From positions 30,276 to 94,275 of the forward strand of contig PUQB01000809.1 of NCBI GenBank assembly GCA_003024785.1: a stretch of 64,000 nt of DNA, given 5' to 3'. Within the stretch, counting starts at the first letter, position 1. The number at the start of each line of letters is the position of its first letter. The translations under genes were made by a program, and so were the position numbers. This DNA is from Selaginella tamariscina (lineage: Eukaryota; Streptophyta; Lycopodiopsida; Selaginellales; Selaginellaceae). Of this stretch, positions 6,873 to 64,000 are shown piece after piece. A model generated the notes under the pieces. The model made no database searches, had not been told where the DNA came from, and worked only from the letters and a program-made list of their open reading frames with translations.

Positions 6873-7089
6873 ATTTTAGAATATTCTTTCTGGTCCAGTC
6901 AACAAAAAAAAAATTCTAGTAAAACTGTTGTATTTCTACCTTATTCTTTTTTATATTAGCTTAATTTATTATTTAATACACATTAGCTAAAGTTTCTTCT
7001 TCATCTTAAGTAAAGCTGCAGTTCTCGAACCACCAGCTAGGCTTGGACGTGGAGGTGTTTGAGTAGGTATTTCCTATGGTCTAATTTCT

Positions 7090-10000
7090 CTACGAGCTTG
7101 TTTGTTACCAACCTAGAGAGTTCGAAACTCTTCTCGATTCCTATAATATTTCCTTCCGAGCTCGACAGCAGCTAACAACGATGATCCGGTTCTGGAACAA
7201 TATCCCAGACTAGGTCGCCATGTCTATTGAGACGCTCGATCAAAAGCTGCATGAGTCGAACACTTTCGGTTCATCATCCTGCACAAACTTCCATTAATAA
7301 ACAAAGTAAAGTACTTCCTTACCAAGCCTCCTGAAAACGGTCGACAGTATCGACGAGGATCGTGTTCGTCAACGCCAGAGGGTTTTGGCCTCTTCGACTT
7401 CTTCTTAGCACCAAGAGAACCAAACAAGTTATCCGCCACAAGTTAAACTTGAACATGAATAGCTAGCTTACCTTAATTAAGTGTAAGTCCCTGCAATCAT
7501 TGCAGCCGCCTGAATCACCGCTGAAACAGAAGGAGAACTCGCGAAGATGACCATGAAACACTCGTTACCAAGTGCATTCCACTGAACTACAAGGCCTCCT
7601 CAAACTTCATTGGATCTAGCGCACAATGTCCTTGTTGATGCTAGCACCTCCATATACAAGCTCATTGGGCAAGTCAAGGATGATGAGGTTGAAGCCGTAT
7701 TCACCTACCACTTCCTGGAACACCGTTTGTGACTCAGTCGTATGTAGTTTGTCAACCTGTTGTTGGAGCTTGGTGTACACCTCTGTTTGGGAAGCACCCA
7801 ACTCGAATGCTCCTCCTCCATATCGCACACAGCCAGTCGTAGGATCCACGGGATGTAGCCAGTGTCGGGATGAAAATCATTAGGTCGTCCTTGATGTCCA
7901 AACCAGCCACAAGTGGCTGCACCTCATTGATCGATTGCCGGCGGAGGTGTTGTAGAAGAGCTTGGTCCCGCTCCCGATCCTTTGCAAGTGTAGTTGTCTT
8001 ATGCACCATCTTCTTCATCTTGCTCTTCTTGATAGCCTTCATCCGGCTCCCAAACAATTGCTGGAAGATCATTGTCATGCACAACAGTGAGCTCTCCCAA
8101 GCTGGTGCTGTTGCGATGGACAGTCGAGCCAGAATGGAACATGCTCCCGTTCGAACGGTGTTAGAGCTCTCTGTTCTTCGACCACATGTGAGGCTCGCTT
8201 GTATGATCTGTCCACATCTTCATCGTCTGACGGTGCCATTTTCTTCTCCAGTATCAACCTGTAACAAAGTTAGTCAGTAGCAATGTTGGATGAAACTTAC
8301 CTCCATATCATCGACGCGCAGACTCCTCACGAGAAACTCATTCGCTCCATCGAATAAGTGAACCGTATGCAGTCATGGAAGGGCTGAAAGACCAGGCACT
8401 TGCTCCGAGTTCGCATCTCGTCAAACCAACTCATGAAGTCAACATCTGTTCCAACTTCTTCACCATCCTCTCACAGTCCCTTAAGGATCTAAATGGCTTC
8501 CTCGTGCACAACCTTCCAATATAAGTCCAAGGTGAACCACTTAATCCACTCTTTGTCCTGCATGCCTGGTAGCCCAAGTGTCTATTGTTCTACTTGGATT
8601 CAAGACGTGAGCTTGTTCAAGTATCTGAGTCACAGCATGTTTGAAATCTTCGCCTTTGACATCGCGTATAGCTTCTCAATGCCCATCCAACGACACTGCT
8701 TATGAGAGATGTTCGTCACCTTCTGGAACCACTCCTCCCCCAACTGGGTCTATGGTAGAGAGGAACTTGTGCATACGCTTGTCATGCTTCTTGTACACTA
8801 GCTGCTTCAGGTTCAGCTCAAGTTGTGGATTGCCTTTAGCACTGGTGACTGCTTTGTCGAGATCATCGTTGATTTCGTTCTGCACATAGAATAAGTTAAA
8901 AACTTCTTTCCTATCAATTAAATTGAATGTTACCTTGAAAAGGATCTTTGTGCAGATCAGGTTTGGAAGAGGATGCCAAGCGTCTTTCCTGTTGCACTCT
9001 CCTTCCACTTCCCACCTCAAGATGATCAACCTCTGTGAGTGACTCGAGAATTTCTGAGTTCCTTCGGTACTAGTGCAGACCGCCTTTACAGCGAGGAGAA
9101 TATGTGGTAGTGTTGTTTCCATAGATGTTGTTGAAGATCTGTTCATTGAAACCGTAAGTTTAGACCCTTAATAAAAAGAAAAAAATACTCACATGTTTAT
9201 CGATTGGAACATCAAAACCAGTTGAAGATTGTCGAGGTTTTCTGTGGAAATGAAACTTGATCAAAAGTGAATAGCCCATTGCTGGTTGTCCTCTACATCC
9301 CCCGGTAGAGCTTCTGCAAAGCTTGTAGCCTATGGTTCTCGTCCCAGCAGCTGAACTTCCGGTTTGAGAGCCTCGAAGCCCACTGTTTGTACTCTGGCTA
9401 AGTAAGAGCTTGCTCAAAAGATCGGTGCTGCTCGTACTGAACCGTGTCCTTCGACAGCTCTGATAGCTCCTCAGCAGTGAGTGGATCTCCGATGGACAGA
9501 ATGAACAAGGCCGTTTGCATAGATAACTAGCCTTCTTCAACGATGACACCAATGTCCAAGTCCTTGGGTTCACTTGTCGAACCACCTCGTTCGAATGCAT
9601 TCTACAGATTGGCACATCAAGAGGATCACCAAGTCCCTTGATAGTAATTTTGTCGAGTAGGTTCGCTTAGCTCTCCAAATGCAGGTTGGCCGGTATGTTG
9701 TATAACTCCTTTGGCTCCTTATCACTCTTCGCCTTCTTGCCTTTTGGATCAGCTCTCCTGCGGCCTCTCTTTTTGCTGACTACTCCTCCAAGTTGTCCTC
9801 GCTAGCTTCCACTGCCTCTATCATTTGCACTTGCTCGTTCAGGACTGTAACCTCAGCAGATGAAGGAGGCAACTGCGACGAGCTCTCCGGGAAATCTGTG
9901 ATGGTTGATGGAGGCTGCTCCTGCTCAACTGGTACTACTTGAGACTGATTCACTGGAGGATCCTCCTTTGCTACATTAAATGGTTCTCCTCTCTTTTCAC

Positions 10001-10331
10001 TTGTGCTTCGATATCCTCTTCTCTTCCCATGGCTCTTCATCAGGCGCAGTCTATAATAAACGTTTTGAAGCTCTCACCATTTTGTAAACTTTGGAAAGCA
10101 AACATACAATCAATTGATTAGGAGACAAAAGGAAAAATAAAAATCAAAGATGACTAACCTTGTGGCTGCCGACTCAAGATAGATGGTGCTGACCCTCTCA
10201 GTCGGCACAAAAAAGTAGAAGAGCAAATCCGAGATAGGTTGGTGGTGCGACCCTCTCAGATGGTATTGAAGAGATAATGTAAGAAGTATGCCGACTGAGC
10301 TAGGATGCGCCGTCCCTCTCAGACGGCACAA
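7090..10331 (-). pseudogene. DNA methyltransferase-like gene of the MULE, copy A
   Basis: Read on the minus strand. The N-terminal half (10040-9780 and further) is low-complexity and charged (KRRGYRSTSEKRGEP, QEQPPSTITDFPESSSQ) and not recognised. Further on are a conserved stretch with YKQWASRLSNRKFSCWDE (about 9400) and one with FYVQNEINDDLDKAV (about 8870). Near the C-terminus, 7690-7655 reads GFNLIILDLPNELVYGG, resembling methyltransferase motif IV (D/N-PP-Y/F; here DLPN). Around 7215-7100, across one frameshift, are RLNRHGDLVWDI, RTGSSLLAAVELGR and NIIGIEKS. This is a good match to the SAM-binding motif I of beta-class DNA methyltransferases, which lies after motif IV as expected for that class. 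Frameshifts and stops are frequent and there are probable introns. It is transcribed away from the transposase. I infer adenine or N4-cytosine DNA methylation of element or host DNA; the target is unknown. Confidence 0.6.
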
Positions 10332-10870
10332 ATGGGAAGACCTTTAACTCTAAAAAAAAAAAAAAAAAACATTGTGATATGGATACTTGAGCCGCAAAGT
10401 AAAAAATAAAGAAATTGAAAATACCTTGTGGTTACCAACTGGAAGGTGCGTCTCTCTCATTCAGCACAAATGGGAAGACCCTTTATCTCTGGAAAAAAAA
10501 ATTATGATATGGATATTTGAGCAAATCATAAAATAAAGAAATTGAATAGACCTTGTGGTGCCGATGGTGCCGTCTCTCTCACACGGCACAAATTCTAAGA
10601 CCCTTTAACTCTAAAAAATAAATTATTTGAGCTGCAAATCATAAAATAAAGAAATTAAATAGACCTTGTGTCTGCCGATTGAGCCAGGATGGTGCCGTCT
10701 CTCTCACATGGCACAAATGGGAAGACCCTTCAACTCTGGCATAAAAAAAAAAACACATTGTGATATGGATATTTGAGCCACAAATTAAAGAAAGAAATTG
10801 CACAAACCTTGTGGCCGCCGATTGAGCAGGATGGTGCCAACAATCTAAATTAGCACAAAATCTCGATTGA
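10160..10870. repeat. Hairpin repeats between the divergent MULE genes, copy A
   Basis: At least seven copies, about 55-140 bp apart, of a unit with an inverted repeat whose best form is GTGCCGTC, a 7-nt loop, GACGGCAC. Copies sit near 10187, 10243, 10303, 10445, 10567, 10691 and 10834. Full units also share TTGTGGCTGCCGACTGAGC before the hairpin and AAATGGGAAGACCC plus an A-run after it. The array lies upstream of both MULE genes, where binding sites for element proteins or a bidirectional promoter would be expected. Confidence 0.7.
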
Positions 10871-18549: not shown

Positions 18550-19847
18550 CTTTCCTGATGCACACTTGTTTCATGTGCACATTCCTCCTACATGGATGGA
18601 GGACATAAAAGTTTATTTGTCGACTGGACTAGTTCCACCATCCTATGAGACTAATGATCAGAAAAAGTTATTTGTCGTGAGGACACGACGTTATTCTTTG
18701 GTGGGAGGAAAGTTATATAAGACGGGTCAGGATGGAGTGTTAAGACGTTGGGTGGAACCTTTTGAGGTTATGGATATCCTGAAAGAGGCCCATGCGGGTC
18801 TAGCAGGAGGGCATTTTGCAGAGGAAATAACTGCAAGGAAAATATTACAGGCTGGGTTATGGTGGCCTACATTATGGAAGGATGTAGGAGATTTCTGTAG
18901 GAAATGTGATAAGTGTCAAAGAGCACATATACCACCTAAGAAACAGGTATATCCTTTAAATCCTATCCTACCACTAGAACCTTTTCAAAGGTGGGGAATG
19001 GATTTTATAGGACCTATAAATCCTTGAGTACAAAAAGGAATCAATATATTCTGGTACTTACGGATTATATGACTAAGTGGGTAGAAGCAGAACCTATGAG
19101 GAAAGCTGATGCTTATAATACAGCCCGTGCTATATATAATATGATTATAGTGCGGTATGGAATTCCTAAGGAAATCATAAGTGATAGAGGAAAACACTTT
19201 ATTAATGAAACAATTCAAACACTTATGGAAGAATTTGTTATAAAACATAAGAAATCTACACCTTATTATCCTCAAGGGAATGGTCAAGCTGAATCTACAA
19301 ATAAAGTCCTTAAGAATGTTTTAAGGAAAGTGATTCAGGAAAATGGAAAAGACTGGGATGAAAGACTTCCTGAAGTCTTGTGGGCTTACAGGACAGCCTA
19401 TAAGGTTGTAACAGGAATGACGCCTTTTAAGTTAGCATATGGACTTGAGGCAATAACTCCTGTTGAATATATTGTGCCATCTTTAAGGATTGCTGTAAAG
19501 CATAATTTAGGTGAGCAAGAATCCTTACAACGTAGGTTACAGGATTAGAAAAACTGGATGAGATAAGATTACATGCTTTATGGACTGTACAGGCAATTCA
19601 GAAAAGAAGGAGAGCCTGGTATAATAGGAAAAGAAAGAAGCATGATATAAGAGAAGGAGATTTGGTCTTGTGGTATAGAGGAAGTGTTGATAAACCACAG
19701 GATAAATTAAAAATGAAATGGTTAGGTCCATTCAAAGTCAAGGAGATAAGTGAGGAAGGTGTGGTAAATGTTGAAACCCTAACAGGAGACGGAATGCAGG
19801 AAAGGGTAAACATAAATAAGTTGAGAGGTATGAAGTATCATTTATAG
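18542..19847 (+). pseudogene. Integrase of element 1
   Basis: Three pieces. 18542-19027 contains the HHCC zinc domain (HAGLAGGHF ... CRKCDKC) and the start of the core, WGMDFIGPI. 18991-19548 holds the DDE core, LVLTDYMTKWVEA, IISDRGKHF, and YYPQGNGQAESTNKVLKNV with the catalytic E. 19548-19847 holds the C-terminal domain (LGPFKVKEISEEGVVNVET). No chromodomain is present. Breaks lie near 19024 and 19548. Confidence 0.9.
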
Positions 19848-22285: not shown

Positions 22286-23225
22286 TGTAGCGGTGGGATT
22301 AATCCCGCCGCTATATGGTGAGACGTGTGTAACGGGGGATTAATCCTGCGCTATATGGTTAGACCTTGGCGGTGGGATTAATCCAGGCTATTCAGTTAGC
22401 CTCATGAGCGGCGGGATTAATCCTGCTGCTATTTCAAGTAGGTTATTTGGTTAGCCTCATGAGCGGCGGGATTAATCCGCGCCTACGGATGCTACGCGGA
22501 ATCCAGCGGGATTTATCCACCACATTGGCCTGTCTGAAAGGCCTAGGTGGTGGGATTAATCCTGCCGGATTCCGCACAGGGCATTGGCGTCCAGCGGAAT
22601 TAATCCCGCCGCGTACGCATGCCCTGCGCGGAATCAGGCGGGATTTATCCCCGCCAAAGGCCTGCCTGAAGGGCCTAGGCGGCGGGATTAATCCCGCCAA
22701 TTCTGCGCAGGGCATTGGTCCGGCGGGATTAATCCCGCGCCTAGGGCCCAAGTGAAGGGCCTGGCGGCAGGATTAATCCCGCCCGCATAGGGCATTGGCT
22801 TCGGGGATTAATCCCGCCTAGGGACCGAGTGAAGGCCCTGGGCGGCGGGATTAATCCCGCCGAGCCTTCAATGCCTGTTGGAGGAATGAATCCCGCCACC
22901 CTTCCTTTTTCTCCATTGGTGAGTCGGACCAATCCCAAACGTTTCTGTCTGAGACGTAGAAGGTTTACAACATACCAATGGAGGACTGGGAAGTGGCGAG
23001 ATTCATTTACCATCCCTTACATGGTGGGCGAGATTAATCCCGCCGCCTTTCTGGAGTCACTGAAGGGGTGTGCCAAATAAATCCTGCCAAGTTCTCTCTG
23101 AGACCGAGAAGGGTGGCAAGATTAATTCCACTCCCGTTCAAGGCCTCCAGAAAGGTGGCGAGATTAATCCCGCCCACTCTTTCAGGAGGCATTGAAGGGT
23201 GGCGAGATTAATCCCGCCGCACCTT
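22286..23225. repeat. Palindrome array 1 (GGCGGGATTAATCCCGCC)
   Basis: About 20 copies of an 18-bp perfect palindrome or close variants, spaced about 40-45 bp centre to centre between 22290 and 22890, then more loosely to 23210. Constant core GATTAATC; the outer GC arms vary, often symmetrically. Spacers are different but share words such as GAAGGGCCTAGG and CCTGCGCGGAAT. Array lies about 300 bp upstream of the ParB-like gene. Confidence 0.9.
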
Positions 23226-23512
23226 CCATGTGAATATATATGTGTATTAGTATATATAAGTTGCATATTCATTTTATTTACTTTTATCATCATAAATCGA
23301 GTAAAAGCTAGGAATCTATGTAAAACTGTCCAGAGCTCACATTTGTGGTGGTTCTAAAACGAAATGTTATCTTTCTTTTGCACTAGCACAAATTGAGCTT
23401 TGGACAGTTAATTCCGTCCACTTCTCTCTGTGTATTATTTTTGTATATTCGGGTTTATACAAGTGTGTGTGCGTTTTTATATGATTTGTATTCATAGTGT
23501 ATTATTTTGCAG

Positions 23513-26500
23513 AAGGACGATTTAATTAAACAAGGAGATCGAGTCATTAGTATGGAGTCGTCGTCAAATTCTGGGTAAGAATTAAAATAAAATCTGTTAT
23601 ACTCGGATATGTGCTTGAACTAATCATTTTTATTCAGATGTGGAATTGAGGTGACATTAAAGACGAGAGCAGGAGAAGAGATGGGCAGGGGGATTCTGGA
23701 ATCAACTTGGCCATATTTCAAACTAAACGGGAAGCGCATTGGAACAACCATGGTTGCTGTCAAACTAACCTCTGTCACATCGCATGGACAAGCAAAACAA
23801 TGGAAAGTGGGTGTGCTAGTCAAGCATCCGAAAGCATGCTGAACCCAGATTGAACGATGCTCGACACATATGCCTTGTTCCATCCAATGTCACGTTCTCG
23901 GATCCAGAGGTCGCCAGTTACAACATTAATTTCGGGTGGTTTTGTCGACTTGTGGATAATGACGTTCACGTGTTCACTAATGATGTTGACCGTGGAGTTC
24001 TTCTTCAACTCAACGAAAGCCCATCTATGGAGGGGATCCAACTGGATGTCTACTTCGAAGATCTTCAGACTCATCGAGTAGGTGTATTCTCAGGAGATAT
24101 TGCTTCACAATACAGAAAATCCACAAGTGGAGCAATCGTCCCTCTTCACATTGAAGAAGAACACAGCGACATCATAAAGGAGATTGAGAGGGTGGCTTGG
24201 TCTCAGGTTCTTTACAGATCACGTTCAATTTGCTTAGAAATTTCGGGAGCTGGAAAGTGTGCCGAGAACATTAGAACAGCATCAATCGGGGATCACACAT
24301 GTTGATTCGGATCGTAAAAGAAAATCATCATCGTTTTGTCAGCTGCACCTGTGGCATTCCATGCTGCAATAAGCACAAGGAAATGATGTTGGATGATAGG
24401 ATTTACGAGTGTAGGGTTAAGTATTGCAGCGTCAACCCAAACTTCAATTACAGGCCACTCAACCAGGAACGTGTAGCTGAGCTCATGGAGAAGATGAAGG
24501 ACGACAATTCTTACACCGTTCCACATAATGCTGTTTTGTGCGCATACTACGAAGAAACAAAGGCGCTGACAAAGTGTGGATCACAACACCGAACAAATGA
24601 GGAAGGTTCAGACGGAGAATAGAAAATCAGTTAAGTACTACATCATTAGTGGCCAGCACACAATAACGGCAGCCCAACGACTTCTCGACGAACACAACAA
24701 AGGAACGATGGCAACAAAACTTTCCGAGCATACCCGTGAGAAGCTGACGAAAAGATCGGCGTTTTTAGCGAAGCCGAATCTCACAATCGAGCAGTACCAT
24801 AAGTTATCGGCGGAATGGGACGCTGCAGACACCAACCACTACAACAGCAAAATATGGGAGAAGTTCAAACACACGCGAGCCGTGTGGGAATCTCTTCAGC
24901 GACCACAAAGAGCTACCGCAGGAATACACAATCTGCGGACTACCGGGTAAGCAAATTGTTTGGGCGGGATTTATCTCGCCGGTATATTAATCTGTCTTTT
25001 TTCAGAGAGTTGAAGAAATTGTAGCAGTTGATTTTGCCCAGGTGGGCGGGAAGGAAACATCCTTTTTGATGATGTTGATTTCTTGTCCGAGGATAGGATC
25101 TTTGCCAAATGGTTGGGGATTATGGAATCCTTTGCAAAAGGAACACTGAAGAAGAAGCAGACAAGTGAAGGGAGCCCTCAGAGAAGTCTGCAAAGAAACC
25201 CAGTAAGACGCCGAAGGCTAAGTCTGTTCAATCTATAAAGGATGTAGACAACGATTTCAAGGAACAACGATGGAGGAGATGGAAGTCTTGGCTGATTTGG
25301 TGATTGATGGCAAATTACAGATTAACAGCAGAGCCCCACCTCTCCTTTTCATCTCAAGGCAATGGAGTTGAAGACGGTCAGGCACTTCAAGGAGTGGTTG
25401 GGAATACACTGCCACAAACTGGGTTGGACCTCGGCTTCAACATACGAAGAGGTCAAAATATTTGCATGTGACAAACGATGATATGCTTGTCGAATGGGTG
25501 AATCAATCGGAAGATCTGGGCAAGAATCTATTGCACGCCAACGCCAAAAAGGAGAACATTGCGATGACGCCTTCTCTTATGGCAGTCCTTCAGCAGCGGA
25601 GAACCGAGTTGAACCTTATAAAGGAGGATGCTACGAATCACGACAAGCCCTACAGATGTTTGTTGTTGGATTCGGAGACTTTATGGGGTACCATCACTGC
25701 TTGTAGGAAACCGTTTCAATTGTTCGTGATGGATCGGCGGGTGTCAAAAAATCCTTCGACAGACAGGACTAGAGGATTTGGTGGAGAAACTTAGCCGTGC
25801 AAGCATGTACAAGAAGGTATTTATTATTGAATTCATACTTGCACTCTTGACTGATATCTACGTTTTCAGGTATTTATTTCTTGATTCTTGCTCATGTCAC
25901 CGATACCTTTGCCTTCGCCTTTGCCAAGAGGAATAAACATCGTTGGACAGGATTTTATATGAATGATGCTGATCCGAAGTGCATTGATTCGGTTGTTCAC
26001 TTGGTTGTTAGGAATGCGCCAAACAATTTCAAACTTCCAAATGACTGGCAGGCATCTGTTTGCACTCCAACGGCCCTGAACCTCCATCCGATACACCGAT
26101 AGTGAGAGTGACGTATTCGGCAATGTACGTTATCCAAACATTACAAGTCAAGCGGCACGGAGCATCGTCAACTTGATCAGGGGTCCTCACAGTGATGCGT
26201 GGGTTTTTGACTACTGCACTAGGGGGTCCGTCTTGAAGGAGTGTTACCTTCGGCATACATGTGTGTTTGCCGTTGAAAAGGATAAGACCATGGTTGAGGA
26301 CCTGAACAAGTGGATAGATAGGTTCTCAACTGATACCCCAACGAATCCATAAAGGAGTATTTGAGAAAGTTCCCTCCCGATAAGTGCGATAGCTCTGAAG
26401 ATGAATCTGGTTCAATGTCGGAGTCTGAGGACGAACTTCAATCAGATATTAGACCGGAAGTTATCTCGAGGAGTACAGAACATTCACACACTCCATTACC

Positions 26501-26603
26501 CATGGAAACATCAATAGAAGATACGAAGATCTTGAACCATCTCACAAGCGGCTTAGACCTTCTTCGCCTCACTCAGAAGGTAATAGCGAAGAAGAATTGT
26601 TAA
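23513..26603 (+). pseudogene. ParB-like plus DNA methyltransferase-like gene, copy 1
   Basis: Spliced gene, with exons at 23513-23574 and from 23638; an intron is likely at 24950-25006. The N-terminal part is unrecognised. From about 24447 it has QERVAELMEKMKDD and, at about 24630, KYYIISGQHTITAAQRLL, matching the ParB/Spo0J nuclease-fold pattern (helix, then a strand with GQHR-like motif and a following helix). The C-terminal part includes NAPNNFKLPNDW (about 26010), RYPNITSQAARSIVNLIRG (about 26135) and DAWVFDYCT.GSVLKEC ... CVFAVEKDKTM (26194-26290). I read the last as methyltransferase motif I with the first Gly changed (CTRGS). An acidic tail ends at 26603. I could not find a firm motif IV, partly because of frameshifts. 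ParB followed by methylase is a known bacterial/phage arrangement. Role inferred: DNA binding and methylation. Not functional as written. Confidence 0.5.
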
Positions 26604-26866
26604 TGAGTTCTTAGAGTGATGAATAGTTGTAAATGAGTGTAACATAAGGCATTTTTGTATATTTCGTTTATATTTGTACAGAAAATAAATTCTCAAGGAT
26701 TAATGAAGCTTTTAGTTCAAACATGGGTCACACATTAACAAGGTAAATAATATACCTTGATAATTTTAAGGTCAGCTAATTATCATTTTGCAGATGTAAT
26801 GAAACAGTTGAAACATGGATTTTCAGCATTGCATGAGGTAAGAGAGGGGTTTGGCAAAAATTTCTT

Positions 26867-27900
26867 GTGCCACATGTCAGAATGACAGAGTTCATGCAGG
26901 AAATGGATAATAATGCAGCTCAAAACATCGTTACCATGGGGGCCACTTTAGTTTTTTCATCATCATTTCTATTGGCTTCAGTTCCGAAATCAATTTCTTC
27001 AGCGCCTGCAATATCTGAATCTTGTAAGGATGATGTACAATTAAATGATAAAGGGATAGGCAACTAGATAGTGTCAACAGATAAATGTGAAAGGGAGCAA
27101 ACAAGTGATTTGCAAAGTATTCAAGAGGCAACGCTATCCCATGTTACTCATGGCCATATTGTGTTGTTGGATGTCAATGGTGTTCTGCTTCATCGACAAA
27201 GGCCCAAGGATAGGAAAAAAGAAATCAAACAAGGAGATTTCATTTCTTGTCATGGTAAATTTTGATATGATATTATTTTTCGTCCAGGGTTGGATCGTCT
27301 CTTTCAAAAGCTTAAGGAGATGGGTGCGCTTGTGGGGATTTGGTCATGCATGCAGATTCACAACTTAACATCGTGTTGAATTTGCTTAAGAAACATTGTA
27401 GTGTTACAGAAGAGGTGATTCGTAAAGATTAGATTTTTGACCAACGAATATGTTATAAACTTCTTGAATTTTACAATATAAAAAAAAAAGCAAGCCATAC
27501 TTCTTCAAGAATGAAAGAATCATTGGGACTCATGGGGAGATCAGTCGCTTGAACGCACAGATGTTAGTGGTAGACGACTCTCCTCAGAAGGCTATGCTTA
27601 ACCAAAAATTGCTTGTATTCATCCAATCACTTTCGACCCATATTCTGATACCGATATCATGGATGAGCTAGTGAACTACTTGGATACGTGCCTCAGAAAG
27701 AAGAATCTTGAAAACTTTTGTGAGTAGTATCCACCGTATTAAACATTTCCTAAAGCTTTTCTTTCTCGTGATTTTGAATTTTATAAAATGAAGGATAGCA
27801 ATCGGGCGCTTTAGAATATTATTCTTAAGGAACGTCAATTTTTAGATGAGTCTTTATGCAGACCTTCTCTTATCACATCTTATGTATTAACAAGGATGGC
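26867..27900 (+). pseudogene. FCP1/NLI-type HAD phosphatase-like gene, copy 1
   Basis: Motifs in order: VLLDVNGVLLHR (about 27157), where HAD phosphatases have DxDxT/V and many plant FCP1-like proteins DLNG; MGALVGIWSCMQ (about 27320); YFFKNERIIG (about 27500); MLVVDDSPQKAMLN (about 27563), the conserved VDDSP loop; and a C-terminal YLDTCLRKKNLENF. This is the order of the NLI-interacting-factor (FCP1 homology) family, which dephosphorylates Ser/Thr residues. The first Asp loop has Asn in place of the second Asp. The frame is broken several times. Probably a host gene captured by the element. Confidence 0.65.
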
Positions 27901-28320
27901 AACTCCCAATTGCATTTGTGAGAGTGTTAGGTGGTGGCAATAATCAAGATATTGACCAAAATGATTCGATTAATCCGAGAGATGATTTAGAAGATTTCTT
28001 TGTATGATAAGAAGAAAGTATTTATAAAAAAATTAACATGTTGATAAGAAAATGATTTCATTTGTAATTATGTTTGATAGTATTTCTTAATTATTGTAAA
28101 CTATTTTTAGAATAATATGAATATTCTAAGATATTTTAGGAATATTCCTTACTACGTAAGGTTATTGAAGGATTAATTTATTAATTAATTAATATTTAAG
28201 GCTTAATTACATATTAATTAAATAATTAATTAATAATTAAAACTTAAGTATTAATTAGTAATTTATTTTATATTCCCATTTTCATGTATCATGCCCACTT
28301 TAGTTACAACGTGCATATTT
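27901..28320. other. AT-rich tail of unit 1
   Basis: Contains GGAATATTCC words and runs of TTAATTAATTAA, then CATGCCCACTTTAGTTACAAC. The same stretch ends the duplicated unit at 31720. No gene. Confidence 0.5.
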
Positions 28321-28607
28321 ATTTCTTACACACACACAAAATATATGTGTATGTACCTATGTATTTGTATATATATATATTACTTTATCTCTCTTTTGAA
28401 TGTATAGTATGTGTGTATTTGTATATATGTAATTTCTTTATCTCTCTCACACACACAATTGTATGTATATATACATGTTTATATGTATTTTATAAGTTTT
28501 TATATTTTTTTTATTATCACACACACACATGCTTGAAATGGTGGCAGGATTAATCCTGCCACACTTTTATATATATACATATACAAATATATATGTGTGT
28601 TTATCTG

Positions 28608-28651
<44 letters not shown>

Positions 28652-28774
28652 CACACACACACTCATGTATATACATATACATATATATGTGTGTGTATGT
28701 ATACTATATGTATAATTTAATTTATTTATTTTTCTTACACACACACACACAAACTGTGTGTGTATGTACCTGTG

Positions 28775-28810
<36 letters not shown>

Positions 28811-29071
28811 CTTTATTTCTCTCTTGAATGTATATGTATGTGTGTATTTATATATGTAATTTCTTTATCTCTCTTACACACACAATTGTATGTATATATA
28901 TATGTTTATATGTATTTTATAAGTTTTTTATATTTCTTTATTTATCACACATACACATGCTTGAAGTGATGGTGGGATTAATCCCGCTACCTTTTTAAGA
29001 GGCCTAGAAGGAGTGGCCGGATTAATCCAGCCACCCTTTTAAGAGGAGTGATGAGATTAACCCGCCACACT

Positions 29072-29124
<53 letters not shown>

Positions 29125-29424
29125 ATTTATTTGTATAATATAATATATTTATCTATCTCTCTTTCACACACACACACTCATGTATATACATATATATATG
29201 TGTGTGTATTTGTATAATATAATTTATTTATTTATTTCTTACACACACACAAATTGTGTGTGTATGTACCTGTGTATTTGTATATATATATAATTACTTT
29301 ATCTCTCTCTCTTACACACAATTATATGTATATATACATGTTTATATACATTTTATAAGTTTTTTTATTTCTTTATTTGTCACACACAACATATGCTTGA
29401 AGTGGTGGCGGGATTAATCCCGCC
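28321..29424. repeat. Microsatellite block in about three copies, with isolated palindromes
   Basis: Roughly 430-500-bp units, each with TTACACACACACAAA, GTATGTACCTGTGTATTT, a TA run, and CACATGCTTGAAGTGGTGG leading into the palindrome. Palindromes stand near 28545, 28975, 29015, 29055 and 29408. Confidence 0.7.
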
Positions 29425-30030
29425 ACCCCAATGATGCTGATTTCAAATGTATTAATATGGTTGTTTGCTTAGTTATTAGGAATACACCAAATAATTTCAA
29501 ATTTTCAAATGACTGGCCAGGCATTTGTTTTCACTCCAATAAGCCTGAACCACCATCAGAGGAACGTATTCAACAATGTACGTTATCCAAACATTACAAG
29601 TCAAGCTGCATGAAGCATTGTCAAATTGATTAAGGGTCCGCACGATGATGCATGGGTTTTTTATTACTGCACTAGGGATCTGTCTTGGAGTGTTACCTTC
29701 GGAATACATGTGTTTGCCGTTGAAAAGGATAAGACCATGGTCGAAGACTTGAACAAGTAGATAGAGAGATTCTTAACTACATGAGTATTTAGGAAAGTTC
29801 CTTCTTGAGAAGTGTAATAGCTTTGAAGAGGAATTTGGTTCAATGTTGGAGTCTAAAAATGATCTTGAATTAGATATTACACTAGAAGTTATCTCAAGGA
29901 GTACATAACATTCACTTACTCTATTGACCATGGAAACATCAATAGAAGAAAGGAAAATGTTAAATGATCTTCCAAGCAGTTAAGACATTCTTCACCTCAC
30001 TCAAAAGGTAACAGCGAAGAAGCATTGATA
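29425..30030 (+). pseudogene. Methyltransferase-like C-terminal fragment, duplicate
   Basis: It corresponds to about 25958-26605 of copy 1 with several deletions: NTPNNFKFSNDWPG-like, the YVIQTLQVKLH frame, and FAVEKDKTMVEDLNK near 29730. The ParB-like part is missing. A palindrome copy directly abuts its left edge at 29408-29425, so the deletion joined array to gene. Confidence 0.7.
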
Positions 30031-30289
30031 ATGTGTTGATAGAGTGACAAAAATTATAAATGAGTGTAACATAAGGCATTTTTGTGTATTTCGTTTATAT
30101 TTGTACAGAAAATAAATTCAAAGATTAAAAAGGTAAATAATATACCTTGGTAATTATAAGGCCAGTTAACTATCATTTTACAAATGTAATAAAACGGTTG
30201 AGAACATGGATTTTCAGAAATGACATGAGGTAAGAGAGAGGTGTGGCAAAAATTTCTTATGCCACATGTTAGAATGATAGAGTTCATAT

Positions 30290-31290
30290 AGGAAATATAA
30301 TAATAATGCAGCTCAAAACATCATTACTATGGGGACCACTTCAGTTTCTACATCACCATTTTATTACCTTCAGTTCCTAAATCACTTTCTTCAGCACCTA
30401 TAATATCTGAATCTTGTAAGGATGATGTACAAGTAAATAATAAAAGGATCAATAATAATATAGTATTAAAAGATAAATGTGAAATGAACCAAACAAGTGA
30501 GTTTCAAACATTCAAGAGGCAACATTGCCCCTTGTTACCCATGGTCATATTGTGTTGTTGAATGTCAATGGTGTTTTGCTTCATTGACAAAGGCCTGAGG
30601 ACAAAGAAAAAAAATCAAACATGGTGATTTCATTTGTTGTCATGGTAAATTTCAATATAATATTATTTTTCGTCTGGGGTTGGGTAGTTTCTTTCAAAAG
30701 CTTAAGAAGATGGGTGCACTTGTAGTGATTTGGTCATGCATGTAGTTTCACAACTTGACCCCACTGCTGAATTTGTTTAACAAACATTGTAGTGTTGTAG
30801 AAGAGGTGATCGTAAAGATTGGATTTTTGACCAGTGAATATATTATAAACCTCTCAAATTCTATAATGTAAAAAAGGAAAGTAAGCCATACTTCTTCAAG
30901 AATGAAAGATTAATTGGGCTTTATTGGGAGATCAATTAGTTAAGGATAATGAAGAATGTACATATCTTAGTGGTAAACGACTCTCCTCAAAAGGCTATGC
31001 TTAACCAAAACATTGCTTGTATCCATCCAATCACTTTCGACCTATATTATGATATTAATACCATGGATGAGCTTGGATACGTGCCTTAAAAAGAAGAATC
31101 TTAAAAACTTTTGTGAGCAATATCCACTATATAAAACATACCCTGATGCTTTTATTTCTCGTGATTTTGAATTTTATAAATTAAAGAAGAGCAACCGGGC
31201 GCTCTACAATATTATTATTAAGGAACATCATTGTTTAAATAAGTCTTTATGCACTCCTCTTCTATCACAGCTTATGTATTAACAACGATG
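30290..31290 (+). pseudogene. FCP1/NLI-type phosphatase-like gene, duplicate
   Basis: A diverged copy of 26867-27900. The nucleotide-binding Asp loop reads LLNVNGVLLH here (Asp to Asn), and MLLVVNDSP-like replaces VDDSP (near 30970). The C-terminal piece 31013-31282 is still open: DTCLKKKNLKNFCEQYPLYK. Loss of the key Asp and the internal stops exclude phosphatase activity. Confidence 0.65.
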
Positions 31291-31734
31291 GCAACTCCTA
31301 ACTGCATTCGTGAGAGTGTTAGGTGGTGGCAACAACATAAAGATATTGACCAAAATGATTTGATTAATCAAAGAGTGATGACTTAAACAAAATGAGGAGA
31401 TTTCTCTATATGGTTAAGGCAAAAGTAATTACAAAAAGATTAACATATTGATAAGAAAATGATTTCATTTATAATTATGTTTGAAAGTATTTTTTAATTA
31501 TTGTAAAATATTTTTACAATGGAGATTAATATGAATATTTTCAGATATTTTAGGAATATTCCTTACTAAGTAAGGTTAATGAAGGATTAATTTGTTAATT
31601 AATTAATATTTAAGATGTAATTATATGTTAATTAAATAATTAATTAATAATTAAAACTTAAGTATTAATTAGCAATTTATTTTATATTCTTATTTTCATG
31701 TATCATGCCCATTTTAGTTACAACATGCATATCT
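31291..31734. other. AT-rich tail of duplicated unit
   Basis: Parallel to 27901-28320, with GGAATATTCC and TTAATTAATT runs. It ends CATGCCCATTTTAGTTACAAC, then jumps into MULE copy B in the middle of its minus-strand gene. Confidence 0.5.
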
Positions 31735-33375
31735 AAATGGCTTCCTCGCACACAGCCTTCCAATACAAGTCCAAGGTGAACCACTTGATCCACTCTTTGT
31801 CCTGCATGCCTGGTAACCCAAGTGTCTGTTGTTCTGCCTTGGATTCAAGATGAGTGAGCTTGTTCAAGTATCGGAGTCGCAACATGTTTGAAATCTTTGC
31901 CTTTGACATCGCGTACAGCTTTTCAATGCCCATCCAGCGACACTACTTATGAGAGATGTTTGTCACTTTCTGGAACCACTCCTCCCCTAACTCTGGGTCT
32001 ATGATAGAGAGGAACTTGTGCATACACTTGTCATGCTTCTTGTACACTAGCTGCTTTAGGTTCAGTTCAAGCTGTGAATTGCCTTTAGCACTGGTGACTG
32101 CTCTGTTGAGATCATCGTTGATCTCATTTTGCACATAGAATAAGTTAAAAACTTCTTTCCTATCAATTAAACTAAAGGTTACCTTGAAAAGAATCTTTGT
32201 GTAGAAGAGGATGCCAAGCCGCCTTTCTTGTTGCATTCTCCTTCCACTTCCGTACCTCAAGATGATCAACCTCCGTGAGCGACTCGAGGATTTCTGAGTT
32301 CCTTCAGTACTAGTGCAGACTGTCTTTATAGCGAGGAGAATATGTGGTAGTGTTGTTTCCATAGATGTTAATGAAGATCTGTTCAATGAAACTGTAAGTC
32401 TAGACTCTTAATGAAAAGAAAAGAAAGTACTCACATGTTTATCGATTGAAACATTGAAACTAGTTGAAGATTGTCGAGGTTCTCTGTGGAGATGAAACTC
32501 AATCGAACGTGAATAGCCCATTGTTTGCATCCTCCCGGTAGAGCTTCTGCAAAGCCTGTAGCCTATGGTTCTCGTCCTAGCAGCTAAACTTCTGGCTTGA
32601 CAACCTCGAAGCCCACTATTTGTACTCCGGTTGAGTAAGAGCTTGCTCGAAAGACCGATGCTACTCATACTGAATCATGTCCTTCGACAGCTCATATAGC
32701 TCCTCATCAGTGAGTGGATCTCCAATAGACAAAATGAACAAGGCTGCCTTCTTCAATGATGACACCAGCTTGTCCAAGTCCCCTGGGTTCACTCGTCGGA
32801 CCACCTCGTTCGAATGCATTCTACAGATTGGCACATTAGGAGGATCAACAAAGTCTCTTGATAGTAATTTTGTCGAGTAGGTTTGTTGAGCTTTCCAAAT
32901 GCAGGTTGGCCGGTATGCTGTATAACTCCTTCAACTCCTTATCACTTTTCACTTTCTTGCCTTTTGGATCAGCTTTCCCACAGCCTCTCTTTTTGCTGAC
33001 TGCCTTCTCCAAGTCATCCTCGCTAAAAGAAGAAAGAGCTTCAACTACCTCTGTCATCTGCACTTGCTCTTTCAGGACTGCAACCTTAGCGATGAAGGAG
33101 GCAACTGCGACGAGCTCTCCAGGAAAGCTGTGATGGTTGATGGAGGCTGCTCCTGCTCAATTGGTACTACTTGAGGCTGAGTCATTGGAGGATCCTCCTT
33201 TGTTACATTAGATGGTTCTCCTCTCTTTCCTTGCTTGTACTTCGATATCTTCTTCTCTTCCCGTGGCTCTTCATCAGGCACAAGCTCTTGTAGACGTTTG
33301 AAGCTCTCACCATTTTGCAGACTCTGGAAAGCAAACACACAAGTCAATTGATTCAAAGACAAAAGAAAAAACAAA
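31735..33375 (-). pseudogene. N-terminal part of the MULE minus-strand gene, copy B
   Basis: Parallel to 8490-10100 in copy A. Visible on the minus strand are FKRLQELVPDEEPREEKK, an E/P/S-rich segment (QEQPPSTITAFLESSSQLPP) and FYVQNEINDDLNRAV. The part coding for the methyltransferase-like motifs lies beyond the break at 31735 and is absent. The remaining sequence has no domain I recognise. Confidence 0.55.
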
Positions 33376-33394
33376 AACCAAAGATGATTAACTT

Positions 33395-33870
33395 TGTGGC
33401 TGCTGACTCAAGCTAGATGGTGCCGACCCTCTCAATTGGCACAGAAAAGTCGATGAGTGAAACCTGCCGACTAAGACCGGTTGGTGCTGATCCTCTCAAA
33501 CGGCACAAATGAGATGATGTATGATGTATGCCGACTGAGCAAGATGGTGATGTCTCTCTCAGACGGCACAAATGGGAAGACCCTTTAACTTTGGCATAAA
33601 ATAAAAAACACATTGTGATATGGATACTTGAGTCGCAAATAAAAAAAACAGAAATTGAACAGACTTTGTGGCTACCGACTAAGCTAGGATGGTGCCGTCT
33701 CTCTCAGATGGCACAAATGGGAAGACCCTTTAACTCTAGCATAAAAAAAAACACATTGTGATATGGATACTTGAGCCGCAAATTAAAGAAAAAGAAATTG
33801 AACAAACCTTGTGACTGCCAACTGAGCAGGATGGTGCTAACAATCTAAGTTGGCACAGAAATCTCGACTG
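33395..33870. repeat. Hairpin repeats between the divergent MULE genes, copy B
   Basis: Five copies near 33419, 33482, 33545, 33690 and 33834, of the same form as copy A (GTGCCGTC, 7-nt loop, GACGGCAC at its best), with shared flanks AAATGGGAAGACCC and GATATGGATACTTGAG. Confidence 0.7.
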
Positions 33871-45700: not shown

Positions 45701-45704
45701 TCAC

Positions 45705-53037: not shown

Positions 53038-55464
53038 TCAAATAAGCTGATTATATGACACATATGAAGTAATGAGAACCATCATTAGTTTTTGAAGATC
53101 CTTGCAGCAATCAAAGTATGCTTTAAGTTTTTTGTTCCTTTGTCCAACAAAGTGTGGGGTTTGCATTTCCACATCACTACTGGCTTCTATGTCGTCTGTG
53201 CTCAGTGATGTCATTTTAATCTCCTCTCGCCACCTTGTTTTAGGCGAAAAAGGGTGTTGCAATTCTGTATTTGTAACAGTAGGCCCTTCTAACTCTCGAA
53301 CAACAATCTCCCAATAGTCGACCACATGCTTATATAGTTTTGAGTAACCAATTGCCTTATCAGAATTCTTTTGCATCAATTTTTGAACCTATGCCACATA
53401 TTTTTTGATGTCATTAATAATAACCTCTTGTTCCTTGAGCTTGGCACTCAATGGAATAGGGTAACCACTCCTGCTCTGATGGCCGTAATTTGTACTGCAT
53501 AATAGGTATATCATCTCGTATGGAGAAAAAGTATTGTATGACACAAGGTGACCAACTAAAGAATCACTCCCCTCTTTTATATACTCGAGAAATATTTTGA
53601 AGTCTGGCACCTTAATCACAAGCAAAGCACAACTTTTTTTGGAGATGCAGTTTTCAAAAAGATTCATCATATGTGGTAAGGTAAGTGTACTTATCCTTTT
53701 TATAGAGTTGGAGACCTTGTTAAGAACGCATCAATATCTTCATGAGTGTGACCAACCATAAGGAAACTGAGCGTGATTGTCTCAAACACACCTTTGCAAC
53801 AAGCATTGACAAGTATACTAGCACATATCTAGAAAATAAAAGTAAGTATGAGCTTGAGAAACCCTCAAGTAAAATGATTTACTTATTTTGTTCTCACATG
53901 CACAATTATCCATCTGTAAAAGCAAATGACGAGGAAGCTTATTTGATGTTGAGGACACATGTACACTATTTGAGCTAAATCCCTCCACTGAACCTAAACT
54001 CTCAATAGGGCCATCTATTTTTTGTGCAGGCTGTTGACAATGCCTCTCATATTCTCAAGTAGCCTCAAGTGCAGACGTGTTCATGAAAGCATTATGTAAA
54101 GGTTGAAAGTGTTGTTTCTTCACTTTGAGATCACTAATAAGACTTGTTTGTGAGTGGGATTCAAAGTTTCTGAAACACATGGCCAACGACCCAATAATGA
54201 AATTGGAGTTGCTAGACCAATGTGGAAGTGAAAAGTGTTCATATGACTCACAACTGTGTCCATGTGTTAGCACACCTGTCAATGAAATTGAAAGTTTCAT
54301 GACATTTCCAAGGCACTTTGATGTTGCAATGAGCTTTAAAATGCTGGTCTTTGAATGATTCATCTTCCCATGGATCAAGCACAGGTACTCTGATGGGTGT
54401 GACACAAAAAGCATGCGGTGTGCATAGTACTGAGACAGACAAATTTATTGTGTAATCATGTGGGCCTCCATCTTCTTTTTAATGGTAGTGATCTCCACGA
54501 AGGTTTTTGCACAAGCCTCTGCAGCCTTCAATGATGTACAAGTGTCACACTTGGAAAAGCTAGAATGTTTTGCAATCTCCACATCCTTAAAATGAGTATT
54601 CCATATATTGTTGAAGGTACCAGTGAAGATTGCTTGGAGCCCTATCAAACTGAGGCACTTGTTCACATGTTCACACAGTTTCAATTGAGTGTAGATTGAA
54701 GCAAAACCTTGAGATTTTCCCTGACCCCTACATTTGTGGCTCGGCATTTGTGAGGCATCCTATCTGCATTTGCTTCCACAAAAGCCTTGAGTATCTTTAT
54801 GGCTGCCATAATGTGAGAGCGGGTTTTGACCAAGCGAGTGTTCCTATGTATTGAGGTTCGCGCTCTATCTAGCCACTCATCCCTCTGACGGTAGAACATG
54901 GTCTTTGGGATCCTGTATATATTGTACCAAGCTTTGAAGTAGATGGCCACCTTATTAAATACCATGGATGTACTCTAATCAGATGTTCGCCACCTCAAGA
55001 GGAATCCAAGATGCAATGTGCCATTAGGTGAAACCTCTGTCACTAACTACACCCACGAAATCGGACCCTAGTTTCTCTTCTGACACTGCTTCCATTGGAT
55101 TTATAACTGTGACGATGCCTCTCCCAACCTCAATCTCATAAAGAAAGAGAATCACCTCATCCATCACAACAGGCAAGCCATCATCTGGTAAACTCATGTT
55201 ACTATTTGTTTCTGACTCTGCATATTCTGTGTCAACCTTGACTTCATCCAAATTCCACAATACATGAGAACCCTCCTCAAATTCCATTCTCGGAACCTCA
55301 ACATGCTTGTAAATGGTGTTCACCCATATGTACACACAAGATCCTTGGGCAATATTGTGACATGATGCATTATCATCTCGAACTTCCACAGTTCCAGTGC
55401 CAACTATCTCGTTGTTCCGAAGAAGACATACTTTATCTTCAATATTAAATATATTGTCCTGCAC
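53038..55464 (-). pseudogene. Unclassified transposase-like gene
   Basis: Pieces on the minus strand in order: 55464-55024 (KVCLLRNNEIVGTGTVEVRD; beta-rich, like the C-terminal domain of plant Ptta/En/Spm-type proteins), 54965-54681 (WYNIYRIPKTMFYRQRDEWL; helix-turn-helix-like, then ADRMPHKCR), 54747-54445 (FSKCDTCTSLK; zinc-binding-like), 54414-54055 (YLCLIHGKMNHSKTS and ISLTGVLTHGHSCESYEHFS; likely the start of an RNase H-fold core with D replaced by G), 53670-53389 (VPDFKIFLEYIKEGSDSLVG) and 53379-53038 (basic tail). I know this pattern only from large transposon-like families in non-seed plants and algae and cannot name the superfamily. The palindrome array at 55600 lies just upstream. 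Confidence 0.45.
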
Positions 55465-55599
55465 ATAAATAATTGTGTTATTTACGATATCTATTTATGC
55501 AATATTTCTAAGAAATCTGAACTACGGTTGCTTAATAATATGCATGTGCAATAATACATAATTATGTAAAGAGATAATATCTCATGCTTGATTAATACA

Positions 55600-56460
55600 A
55601 CTGATGGGCGGGATTAATCTCGCCACGACTCCCTTCGATGAACGGTGGTGGGATTAATCCCACTACCGACTCTACCCTTTCGGAGAGAGTCGGCGGGATT
55701 AATCCTGCCGTCGATTCTACCCCTTCAGAGAGAGTTGGCGGGATTAATCCCGCCGCCGATTCCCTCCAAATCGACAGAATTAATCCCGCCGCCGGATCTT
55801 CCTAATCGGAGAGAGCGGCGAGATTAATCCCGTCACGGACTCCCTTTGATGAGGAAGAAGTGGCGGGATTAATCCCACCGCAATTCCCTCCGACGAGGAA
55901 GAGGCGGCGGAATTAATCCCGCCGCCGGATCTTCCTTGTCGGAGAGAGGTGGCGGGATTAATTTTGCCGCAATTCCCTCCGACAAGGAAGAGGCAGCGGG
56001 ATTAATCCTGCCGCCGGATCTTCCTCGTCGAAGAGAGGTGACAAGATTAATTTTGTTGCAACTTCCTCCAATGAGGAAGAGACGGCGGGATTAATCCCGC
56101 CCACAACTCTCTCTAAAACTATGATTTCAAAGAGATATCGGGATAAATCATGCCCACATATCTTTAAAATAAAGAAGTGGTGGCGAGATTAATTCCACCA
56201 TCCCTTCTTTGCCTCCTAGAATGGTTGGCAAGATTAATTCCGCCGACAACTTTTCTAATAAATTCAGGTAACTCTTTATCAATTGAGAGAGTTATCGGCA
56301 GGATTAATCCCGCTGCTCTTTTTTAAAGGTGGAGAAGCATTGCCCGGACTAATTCTGTTATGGCTATTAAAGAAATGGTGGCGGGATTAATCTCGCCACT
56401 TCTTTTAAGAGGCGAAAAAGAAATGGCCAGATTAATCCTGCCGCCTAGCTAACTGAGAAT
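55600..56460. repeat. Palindrome array 2
   Basis: About 19 copies of the GGCGGGATTAATCCCGCC family with 43-46 bp spacing (centres near 55613, 55657, 55701, 55747 and onward). The spacers share TCGGAGAGAG and CCTCCGACGAGGAAGAGG, and they are partly complementary to each other. Core GATTAATC is constant; arms decay toward the right end. Confidence 0.9.
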
Positions 56461-61105: not shown

Positions 61106-62165
61106 ATTTATAGCGGCGGGATTAATCCCGCCGCTATATAGTTAGGGCCTAGGTGGTGGGATTAATCCCGCCACTATATGGTTAGGGCCTCAGCGGCGGG
61201 ATTAATCCTGTTGCTCATCTGTCACCCTCATGAGCAGCGAGATTAATCCCGTCACCGAGGCCCTTCATGCAGGTCATGAGCGACGGGATTAATCCGCCGC
61301 CCTTCATGCAGGCTATTCGGTTAGCCTTATGAGTGGCAGGATTAATCCCGCCGCCCATGAGGCTAACCGAAGAGCGGTAGGATTAATCCCCCACCCATGG
61401 CCTACGTAAAGGGCCTAGGCAGCGGGATTAATCCTTCGCACACCCATCCCTGCGCGGAATGCGGCGGGATTTATCTCGCCACCAATGGCATGTGTGAAGG
61501 ACCTAGGCGGCAGGATTAATCCCACCGCCCATGGCCTGCGAGAAGAGCCTAGGCAACAGGATTAATCCCGTCGCACACCCATGCACTGTGCAAAAGCCAG
61601 CGGGATTAATCCCGCCTGCATGAAGGGCCTAGGTGGCAGGATTAATCTGGCCACACGCCCATGCCCTGCGCGGAGGGCAACGGGATTAATCCCGCCCCTC
61701 ACCCATCCCTTCTCGAAGGGCGAGGGGATTAATCCCACCACCCATATATATGTGTGTGTGCGCATGATTTACGAGAGGGCGCGGGATTAATCTCGCTGAC
61801 CCTTCTATGCCTAATAGCATGATGAATCCCGCCACCCTTCTTTTTTTCCTCCATTGGTGAGTCGAATCAATCCCGATCACCTCTGTCTGAGACGGAGAAG
61901 GTTTATAGCATACCAATGGAAGGGACTGAAAAGGGTGGCGAGATTAATTTCAACATCCCTTACATGGTGGGCGAGATTAATCCCGCCGCCTTTTGGAGCC
62001 CTGAATGGGTGTGCCAAATAAATCCTGCCCAGTTCTCTTAAGACCAAAAAGGGTGACGGGATTAATCCTGCACACCCATTTAGGGCCTCCAGAAAGGTGG
62101 TGAGATTAATACCGCCCACCTTTCAGGAGGCATAAAAGGGTGGCGAGATTAATCCCCCCCCACCT
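61106..62165. repeat. Palindrome array 3
   Basis: About 24 copies of the palindrome family; the first (61111-61134) is perfect over 24 bp including AGC/GCT ends. Spacing is mostly 40-50 bp. Collinear with array 1 at the right-hand end, where GTGGGCGAGATTAATCCCGC and CCAATAAATCC-like variants occur in the same order. Confidence 0.9.
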
Positions 62166-62484
62166 TCATGAATATATATGTGTATTAGTATATATAAGTT
62201 GCATATCTCATTTTATTTACTTTTATCATCTTATCATAATATTTTGAGTAAAAGCCAGTAAACTATATGAAACTGTCCAAAGCTCACATTTGTGGTGGTT
62301 CTAAAACCAAATGTTATCTGTCTTTTGCACTATCACAAAGTGACTTTGGACAGTTAATCCCATCCACTTCTCTTGAGACAAAGAGGGTGTATGTGAATTT
62401 ATTGTGTATTAATTTTTTTATTCGGGTTTATACAAGTGTGTGTGCGTTTTTATATGAATTGTATTCATAGTGTATTATTTTGTA

Positions 62485-64000
62485 AAAGGATGATTTAATC
62501 AAACAAGGAGATTCAGTCATTAGTATGGAGTCGTGTCAAATTCTGGGTAAAATTAAATAAAATCTGTTATACTCGGATATGTGCTTGAAGAACTAATCAT
62601 TTTTGTATTCAGATGTGGAATTGAGTGACATTGAAAACAAGAGATGGGCAGGGGATTATGGAATCAACTTGGCCATATTTCAAACTAAACGGGAACGCAT
62701 TGGAGCAACCATGGTTGCTGTCAAACTAACCTCTGTTACATCGCATAAACAAGCAAAACAATGGAAAGTAGATTTACTAGTCAAGCACCCAAAAGCATCT
62801 GCGAACCCAGATTGGACGATGCTCGACACATATGCCTTGTTCCATCCAATGTCACGTTCTCGGATCCAGAGGTCGCCAGTTACAACATTAATCTTGGGTG
62901 GTCTTGTCGACTTGTGGATAATGATGTTCACGTGTTCACTAATGATGTTGACCTTGGAGTTCTTCTTCAACTCAACGAAAGCCCATCTATGAGGGGATCC
63001 AATTAGATGTCTACTTCAAAGATCTTCAGACTCATCGAGTAGGTGTATTCTCAGTAAAGATTGCTTCACAATACAGAACATCCACAAGTGGAGCAATCGT
63101 CCCTCTTCACATTGAAGAAGAACAGCAACATCATAAGGGAGATTGAAGGGTGGCTCGGTCCAGTTTTTACAGATCACGTTCAATTTGCTTAGGAATCTTC
63201 AGGAGCTGGAAGAGTGTGCCGAGAACATTAAACAGCTGCAATCGGGATCACACATGTTGATTCGGATCGTAAAGAAAATCATCAGTCGTTTTGTCAGCTG
63301 CATGTGGCATCCCATGCTGCAATAAGCCACAAGGAAATGATGTTGGATGATAGGATTTATGAGTGTAGGGTTAAGTATTGCAGTGTCAACCCAAACTTCA
63401 ATTACAGGCCACTCAACAGGAACGTGTAGCTGAGCTCATGGAGAAGATGAAGGACGACAATTCTTACACCGTTCCACATAATGCTGTTTTGTGCCCATAC
63501 TACGAAAGAAAGAAAGGCGCTGACAAAGTGTGGATCACAACACCAGAACAAATCATGAAGATTCAGACGGAGAATAGAAAATCAATCAAGTACTACATCA
63601 TTAGTGCCAGTACACAATAACGGAGCCCAACGACTTCTCGATGAACACAACAAAGGAACGATGGCAACAAAACTTTCTGAGCATACCCGTGAGAAGCTGA
63701 CAAAAAGATGGCATTTTTACTAAGCCGAATCTCACAATTGAGCAGTATCATAAGTTATCGGCGGAATGGGACGCTGCCGACACCAACCACTACAACAGCA
63801 AAATATGGAAGAAGTTCAAACACATGCGAGCCGTGTGGGAATTTCTTCAGCGACCACAAAGAGCTACTGCGGGAATACATAATGTGCGATGTACCAGGTA
63901 AGTAAATTGTCTGGGCAGGATTTATCTTGCCGGTATATTAATCTGTCTATTTTCTTCTTCAGAGAGTTAAAGAAAATTATAACAGTTGATTTTGCCCAGG
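62485..64000 (+). pseudogene. ParB-like plus methyltransferase-like gene, copy 2 (partial)
   Basis: About 90-95% like 23510-25050 by eye. Where copy 1 is shifted, copy 2 is open and vice versa. 63420-63600 runs from QERVAELMEKMKDD through DKVWITTPEQIMKIQ to KYYIIS before a one-base loss at the GQH motif. The N-terminal part includes NINLGWSCRLVDNDVHVF. The window ends in the intron/exon after the ParB-like domain, so the methyltransferase part is not seen here. The intron at about 63897-63961 keeps a palindrome variant at 63914. Confidence 0.55.

Follow-up and report, generated by a model that had tools for sequence, protein, structure and literature searches.

Palindrome arrays beside decayed mobile-element genes in Selaginella tamariscina: candidate target sites of transposon accessory proteins

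Introduction

Bacterial ParB proteins act on palindromic sites, as in the ParB-parS systems, and fusions of ParB with DNA methylases are known. In the alga-borne transposon Ectocarpus Sola1 (Sola1-1_Ec32), a gene for a ParB-like and N4/N6-methyltransferase protein of 1104 aa lies on the strand opposite the transposase, and the published passages, which cite Iyer 2011 and Petroll 2025 and refer to green and red algal relatives, propose that such ParB-methyltransferase accessory proteins bind and modify their own transposon (PMC12477816). In Arabidopsis, VANC proteins are described as relieving the silencing of the VANDAL elements that encode them, where they bind dense repeated motifs lying upstream of genes and within introns; these repeats change quickly (PMC5735166, PMC10398659). 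Here we analyse 64,000 nt of Selaginella tamariscina DNA (contig PUQB01000809.1 of assembly GCA_003024785.1, positions 30,276–94,275, forward strand; hereafter the window), in which a decayed mobile-element gene, gene A, stands behind an array of 18-bp palindromes, and a second element, X, pairs a methyltransferase-like gene with an unrelated hairpin array.

An earlier note on this DNA had read gene A as encoding a ParB-like protein with a downstream methyltransferase motif and had suggested that the protein may recognise, spread on or methylate the neighbouring array, as a self-marking or partition-like device. Literature searches returned no description of this element and nothing under DUF7869, the family of another gene in the window; PMC12477816 was the relevant precedent. 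The locus resembles the algal accessory genes in having an element-borne gene read as ParB-like and then methyltransferase, and X resembles Sola1 in that its methyltransferase gene lies opposite in strand to a neighbouring broken gene. It differs in that ParB is unproven here, methyltransferase similarity is supported in X only, and the host lineage is presumably another; the algal passages, moreover, mention no palindrome array (PMC12477816). The VANC/VANDAL system may be the closest in mechanism, with its dense, fast-diverging and family-private motifs upstream and in introns. The VANC21 motif is described as a 9-mer in one orientation (PMC5735166), whereas the sites here are palindromes.

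Results and discussion

An array of palindromes and a decayed gene recur as one unit

The feature coordinates are collected in Table 1. The "some 20" palindromes of the earlier note were found as 19 copies, usually spaced by 35–55 bp, with two wider intervals (88 and 147), in an array that ends about 330 bp ahead of the first ATG of gene A. The 10-bp core GGATTAATCC has 35 exact matches in the window; 100 dinucleotide shuffles gave 0.05 on average. At up to four mismatches the window holds 60 sites for GGCGGGATTAATCCCGCC, of which 17 fall in array A, 21 in the array of copy B, 16 in a further array, D, four in a loose group at copy C and two in one gene intron; outside these places there are none. 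Copies A and B each have one of the intronic sites, and the intron is the same. An alternation of inverted spacers was also considered and dropped, as neighbouring spacers are no more alike as reverse complements than directly.

Gene A has three introns with GT-AG borders, placed by eye at 23575–23637, 24947–25005 and about 25817–25869. The ParB-like motif quoted in the earlier note is indeed encoded there, and is followed by a lysine-rich part and then, towards the C terminus, by residues similar to motif I of methyltransferases. Downstream, and in the same element, is a broken NIF/HAD phosphatase-like gene (PF03031, E=2.1e-8, 34.5 bits against a cut-off of 21.8 on X-joined pieces), which is repeated in copy C.

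The pairing of array and gene was said to recur, and it does: copy B has 22 palindromes within five mismatches, again mostly 35–55 bp apart, followed by the 5' part of the gene, and A and B share 85.1% DNA identity over 22463–25042 and 61419–64000. Copy C, which lacks the region of A from the array to about 25962, matches A at 81.3% identity (25962–28321 against 29430–31735), and the matching stops at the same point in both, about 28321 of A. A repeat of about 400–430 bp, in which microsatellites are mixed with palindromes, occupies 28316–29427, directly 5' of the gene part of copy C. As judged from these alignments, array and gene are a repeated unit of an element, of which the truncated copy C retains four palindromes, and because the pair recurs in this way the link between them is more than a single coincidence.

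Frame changes break the gene in copies A, B and C alike. Mismatches between A and B fall 25, 18 and 33 times at the three codon positions (400 codons each), and single changes comprise 25 synonymous and 26 non-synonymous, with one of the four segments at 4 to 12; this comparison suggests modest coding constraint. Gene A is a decayed mobile-element gene.

A second element pairs a methyltransferase-like gene with its own hairpin array

Element X was found with a position-specific scoring matrix for motif I, which ranked the X site first and placed 20 other sites above that of gene A. The methyltransferase profile was built from eight beta-class enzymes (E. coli YhdJ and seven from phages); nine loci (L002–L010) had been fetched, and L008, without an annotated gene, was excluded. 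The motif I pieces of X match this profile with an hhalign probability of 92.6% (E=4.6e-7, none of 40 shuffles as high), and gene X matches four methyltransferase families in PHROGs (E=7.1e-4, 0.016, 0.11 and 0.17). Pfam's own PF01555 model did not report gene X, and the joined pieces (741 aa) had no match in the protein database at E<=0.1. X is like the beta-class N6/N4 methyltransferases (PF01555) in motif I and unlike them in motif IV, where X1 reads DLPN for the expected DPPY. We describe X as methyltransferase-like on motif I only. No ParB family was reported for gene X in Pfam or PHROGs; in hhalign its long piece aligned with ParBs at a probability of 14% (E=0.002, 0 of 40 shuffles as high) but outside the expected box, and the box piece alone was equalled by 2 of 40 shuffles.

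At the 5' side of both copies of X stands a palindrome, GGTGCCGTC-TCTCTCA-GACGGCAC, that differs from the A-type palindrome. All 11 sites for this 27-mer at up to nine mismatches lie in X1 (six) or X2 (five), with none elsewhere in the window, and ten mononucleotide shuffles gave one site once and none nine times. Across the 11 stems 87.4% of cells are paired, compared with 17–44% when the arms are slid, and 15 of 500 shuffles reach this pairing. Shuffles equalled the covariation score in 18 of 500 cases, the count of doubly changed cells in 28, that of doubly changed pairs in 274 and that of pair types in 388. The dyad symmetry is clear, the covariation no more than suggestive. X2, with its gene part at 31731–33390, is 84.9% identical to X1 over 8487–10557. 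Beside both copies runs a divergent, broken plus-strand gene (open frames at about 11280–13700 and 34297–37276) that matches no Pfam family and which, by eye, may be transposase-like.

An A-type array also adjoins a DUF7869 gene

The A-type palindrome recurs in array D, where spacings are 44–45 bp in 10 of 16 cases, beside a broken gene matching PF25273 (DUF7869; E=1.6e-6, 28.2 bits against a cut-off of 26 on joined pieces; 7.4e-5 and 22.9 bits, under the cut-off, on one open piece alone). We infer that its product is transposase-like. The best matches of spacers to D spacers exceeded 95% of shuffles for 4 of 16 spacers in A, 9 of 19 in B and the single one in C, and because some spacers resemble those of D beyond shuffles, arrays A, B, C and D appear to share descent.

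Within the arrays, the mean frequency of the major base inside the 18-mer is 0.88 in A, 0.89 in D and 0.85 in B, falling to 0.42, 0.52 and 0.43 in the flanks, and the most invariant part by per-position mismatches is the centre, ATTAAT, not the GGCGGG half-sites. When A and B are compared with gap columns excluded, the gene is 94.1% identical, the leader 91.9%, the palindromes 80.6% and the spacers 74.8%. The array thus diverges faster than the gene, and at corresponding places palindromes are kept better than spacers by a small margin only; constraint shows more strongly within the arrays, in the contrast between the 18-mer and its flanks. Deviations from the palindrome in A, B and D are C>T or G>A in 91 of 133 cases, a count without a neutral baseline. 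Mirror pairs have changed on one side only in 117 instances and on both sides in 14, six of these 14 being still complementary.

A proposed mechanism and the evidence against it

The explanation that we put forward tentatively, and to which we give somewhat less than an even chance, is that both A and X represent decayed DNA transposons with genes for accessory DNA-binding or DNA-modifying proteins and cognate palindrome arrays 5' of those genes, in a VANC-like arrangement. Each element would have carried a gene for an N6-adenine or N4-cytosine methyltransferase-like protein of this kind, and the palindromic sites in the 5' non-coding DNA would have been recognised by that protein or by a partner of the same family. 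By binding many sites at once, the protein could have been restricted to the element family encoding it, whose copies it would then have marked or shielded from host silencing, or licensed for transposition. In favour of this are the joint occurrence of array and gene in copies A and B and the palindrome in the intron of both; together, intronic and upstream sites match the layout described for VANC21 targets (PMC5735166). Also in favour are the conservation of the 18-mer relative to its flanks in three arrays, the divergence of the array ahead of that of the gene, as with VANC target repeats, the clear motif I and separate array of X, and the score of A's motif I stretch against that of X, higher than in all 60 shuffles. 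The motifs would be family-private to the extent that A and B share an array and an intron site while X has a different array, but the A motif is common to the DUF7869 element as well. The self-marking idea, which has been published for transposons of algae (PMC12477816), is plausible by analogy because X pairs methyltransferase motif I with an array and because algal ParB-like/methyltransferase genes have been reported. Element X with its own hairpin array is new here; like array D beside another gene and the intronic palindromes, it is additional to the earlier note. We think it rather unlikely that these elements exemplify land-plant transposons in which ParB/methyltransferase-type proteins and private palindrome arrays co-diversify as an address label, with bacterial-type methylation taking the place of VANC.

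Several results weigh against the proposed mechanism, and most concern the domains of gene A. Profile searches with its broken copies against Pfam, NCBIfam, PHROGs and PDB sequences returned no ParB or methyltransferase family, and so did not bear out the labels given in the earlier note. The joined pieces (860 aa) had no match in the protein database at E<=0.01 and tblastn against phages found none; among viral contigs one stretch carried the pattern, and there was no relative. The exact 18-mer occurs in one viral contig stretch, as a lone intergenic hairpin in L001, terminator-like by eye, which was judged unrelated. In hhalign comparisons with six plasmid-type ParBs (P1/F/N15-type only), 3 of 40 shuffles scored as high as the long piece of gene A; a 32-residue piece was equalled by none of 40, in an alignment that was out of register. 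Against the eight methyltransferases, shuffles scored equally high in 35 of 40 and 20 of 40 cases. The motif I stretch of A scored above all 60 shuffles when aligned with that of X (probability 15.8%), was equalled by 2 of 60 when X was merged with the enzyme profile, and by 11 of 60 with the trimmed enzyme profile alone. No canonical catalytic motif IV ([DNS]PP[YFWH]) occurs in any of three frames on the coding strand of the gene regions of A, X1 and the partial copies B, C and X2. A single-sequence AlphaFold model of gene A is poor (mean pLDDT 43.6), and a fold search with it gave no match at E<=0.001; we take its order of helices and strands to be compatible with ParB, but the model is too poor to use. 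Because these comparisons yielded neither family, gene A is not classified here as a ParB or a methyltransferase: with bacterial ParB systems it has in common sites that are palindromic and a motif taken to be ParB-like, and it differs from them as an element gene with introns for which profile and structural support is absent.

Two further points tell in the same direction. Array D places the A-type palindrome ahead of another gene, and nothing ParB-like was seen adjoining it. This weakens the case for array and gene A belonging to each other exclusively, even as their recurrence as a unit stands. The predominance of C>T and G>A changes, for its part, fits past cytosine methylation and suggests that the host methylated these copies rather than their having been shielded.

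Alternative explanations

Since array D adjoins the DUF7869 gene and the arrays appear related, a serious rival is that the palindromes are binding sites of a DUF7869 transposase, D being the autonomous element, A, B and C non-autonomous ones, and the gene beside array A unrelated. That no transposase family in Pfam was matched in the scanned pieces of A fits this reading too. It accounts less readily for the occurrence of palindromes inside an intron of gene A as well as 5' of genes, and for the pairing in X of a methyltransferase gene with an unrelated array; it also takes a DUF7869 protein to be a transposase, and no terminal inverted repeats were seen by eye at the ends of A, no systematic search having been made there or at D. 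On balance we hold it to be somewhat unlikely.

The arrays might alternatively be neutral minisatellites, that is, palindrome-prone repeats expanded by slippage in the flanks of the elements and without function. The faster divergence of array than gene, the small margin by which palindromes are better kept than spacers, the dominance of C>T and G>A changes and the few doubly changed mirror pairs that remain complementary would all be expected of such repeats, as would surroundings rich in simple repeats; three of the X stem measures (cells and pairs changed on both sides, and pair types) are unremarkable or weak. Yet the conserved block coincides with the 18-mer in three arrays and recurs in the intron, and the X stems pair far better than slid ones and better than most shuffled ones, which leaves this an unlikely account. 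We regard it as improbable that the arrays serve as promoter repeats bound by a transcription factor of the host, such as one of the E2F type, through which element genes would be driven in cells that divide. It is true that A, B and D lie 5' of genes, and the facing half-sites GGCGGGA/TCCCGCC are, we presume, E2F-like, but it is the ATTAAT centre rather than these half-sites that is most invariant, and X uses a different sequence.

Other features of the window

Between X1 and copy A lies a Ty3/gypsy-like retrotransposon with long open frames, recognised by eye, at 14364–19844. Both strands of a degenerate tandem repeat at 45593–47001 carry long open frames that would encode repetitive peptide, and repeats of about 1 kb form an inverted pair at 4815–5812 and 58249–59260 (81% identity). 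The assembly has a gap (a run of N) at 39767–39959.

Table 1. Features of the palindrome-bearing elements, in window coordinates.
Feature	Position	Strand	Description
Element X1 methyltransferase-like gene	7040..10090	-	Broken; motif I at about 7223-7040
X1 hairpin array	10185..10859		Approximately GGTGCCGTC-TCTCTCA-GACGGCACAAA; 6 scored copies at 5' side of gene
Palindrome array A	22292..23218		19 copies of approximately GGCGGGATTAATCCCGCC, <=5 mismatches to the 18-mer
Gene A	23552..26600	+	Frameshifted, intron-bearing; open segments, common to copy B
ParB-like motif of gene A	24570..24947	+	Motif quoted in the earlier note
Intronic palindrome	24963..24980		Second intron of gene A; counterpart in copy B at 63914-63931
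Motif I-like segment	26080..26349	+	VFDYCTRGS...VFAVEKD; read directly from gene A
NIF/HAD phosphatase-like gene	26837..27724	+	Broken; same element, downstream of gene A; PF03031
Copy C	28543..31735	+	Four palindromes, then gene A 3' part and phosphatase-like gene
Element X2	31731..33867	-	Partial copy of X1, without the methyltransferase 3' part
X2 hairpin array	33419..33859		5 scored copies at 5' side of gene
DUF7869 gene	53041..55494	-	Broken; PF25273 profile match; array D at 5' side
Palindrome array D	55607..56442		17 copies, 5' of the DUF7869 gene
Copy B	61115..64000	+	Array of 22 palindromes and gene 5' part; cut by the window edge at 64000

Significance

The published passages on transposon ParB-methyltransferase genes name no target site (PMC12477816). 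If the mechanism proposed here for A and X is right, two element-specific arrays 5' of such genes would supply candidate target sites and open the proposal to direct testing. Should the domain calls fail, the arrays would still mark candidate sites for a DUF7869-type transposase; should they hold, an address-label strategy like that of VANC would be extended to DNA methylation of the bacterial type.

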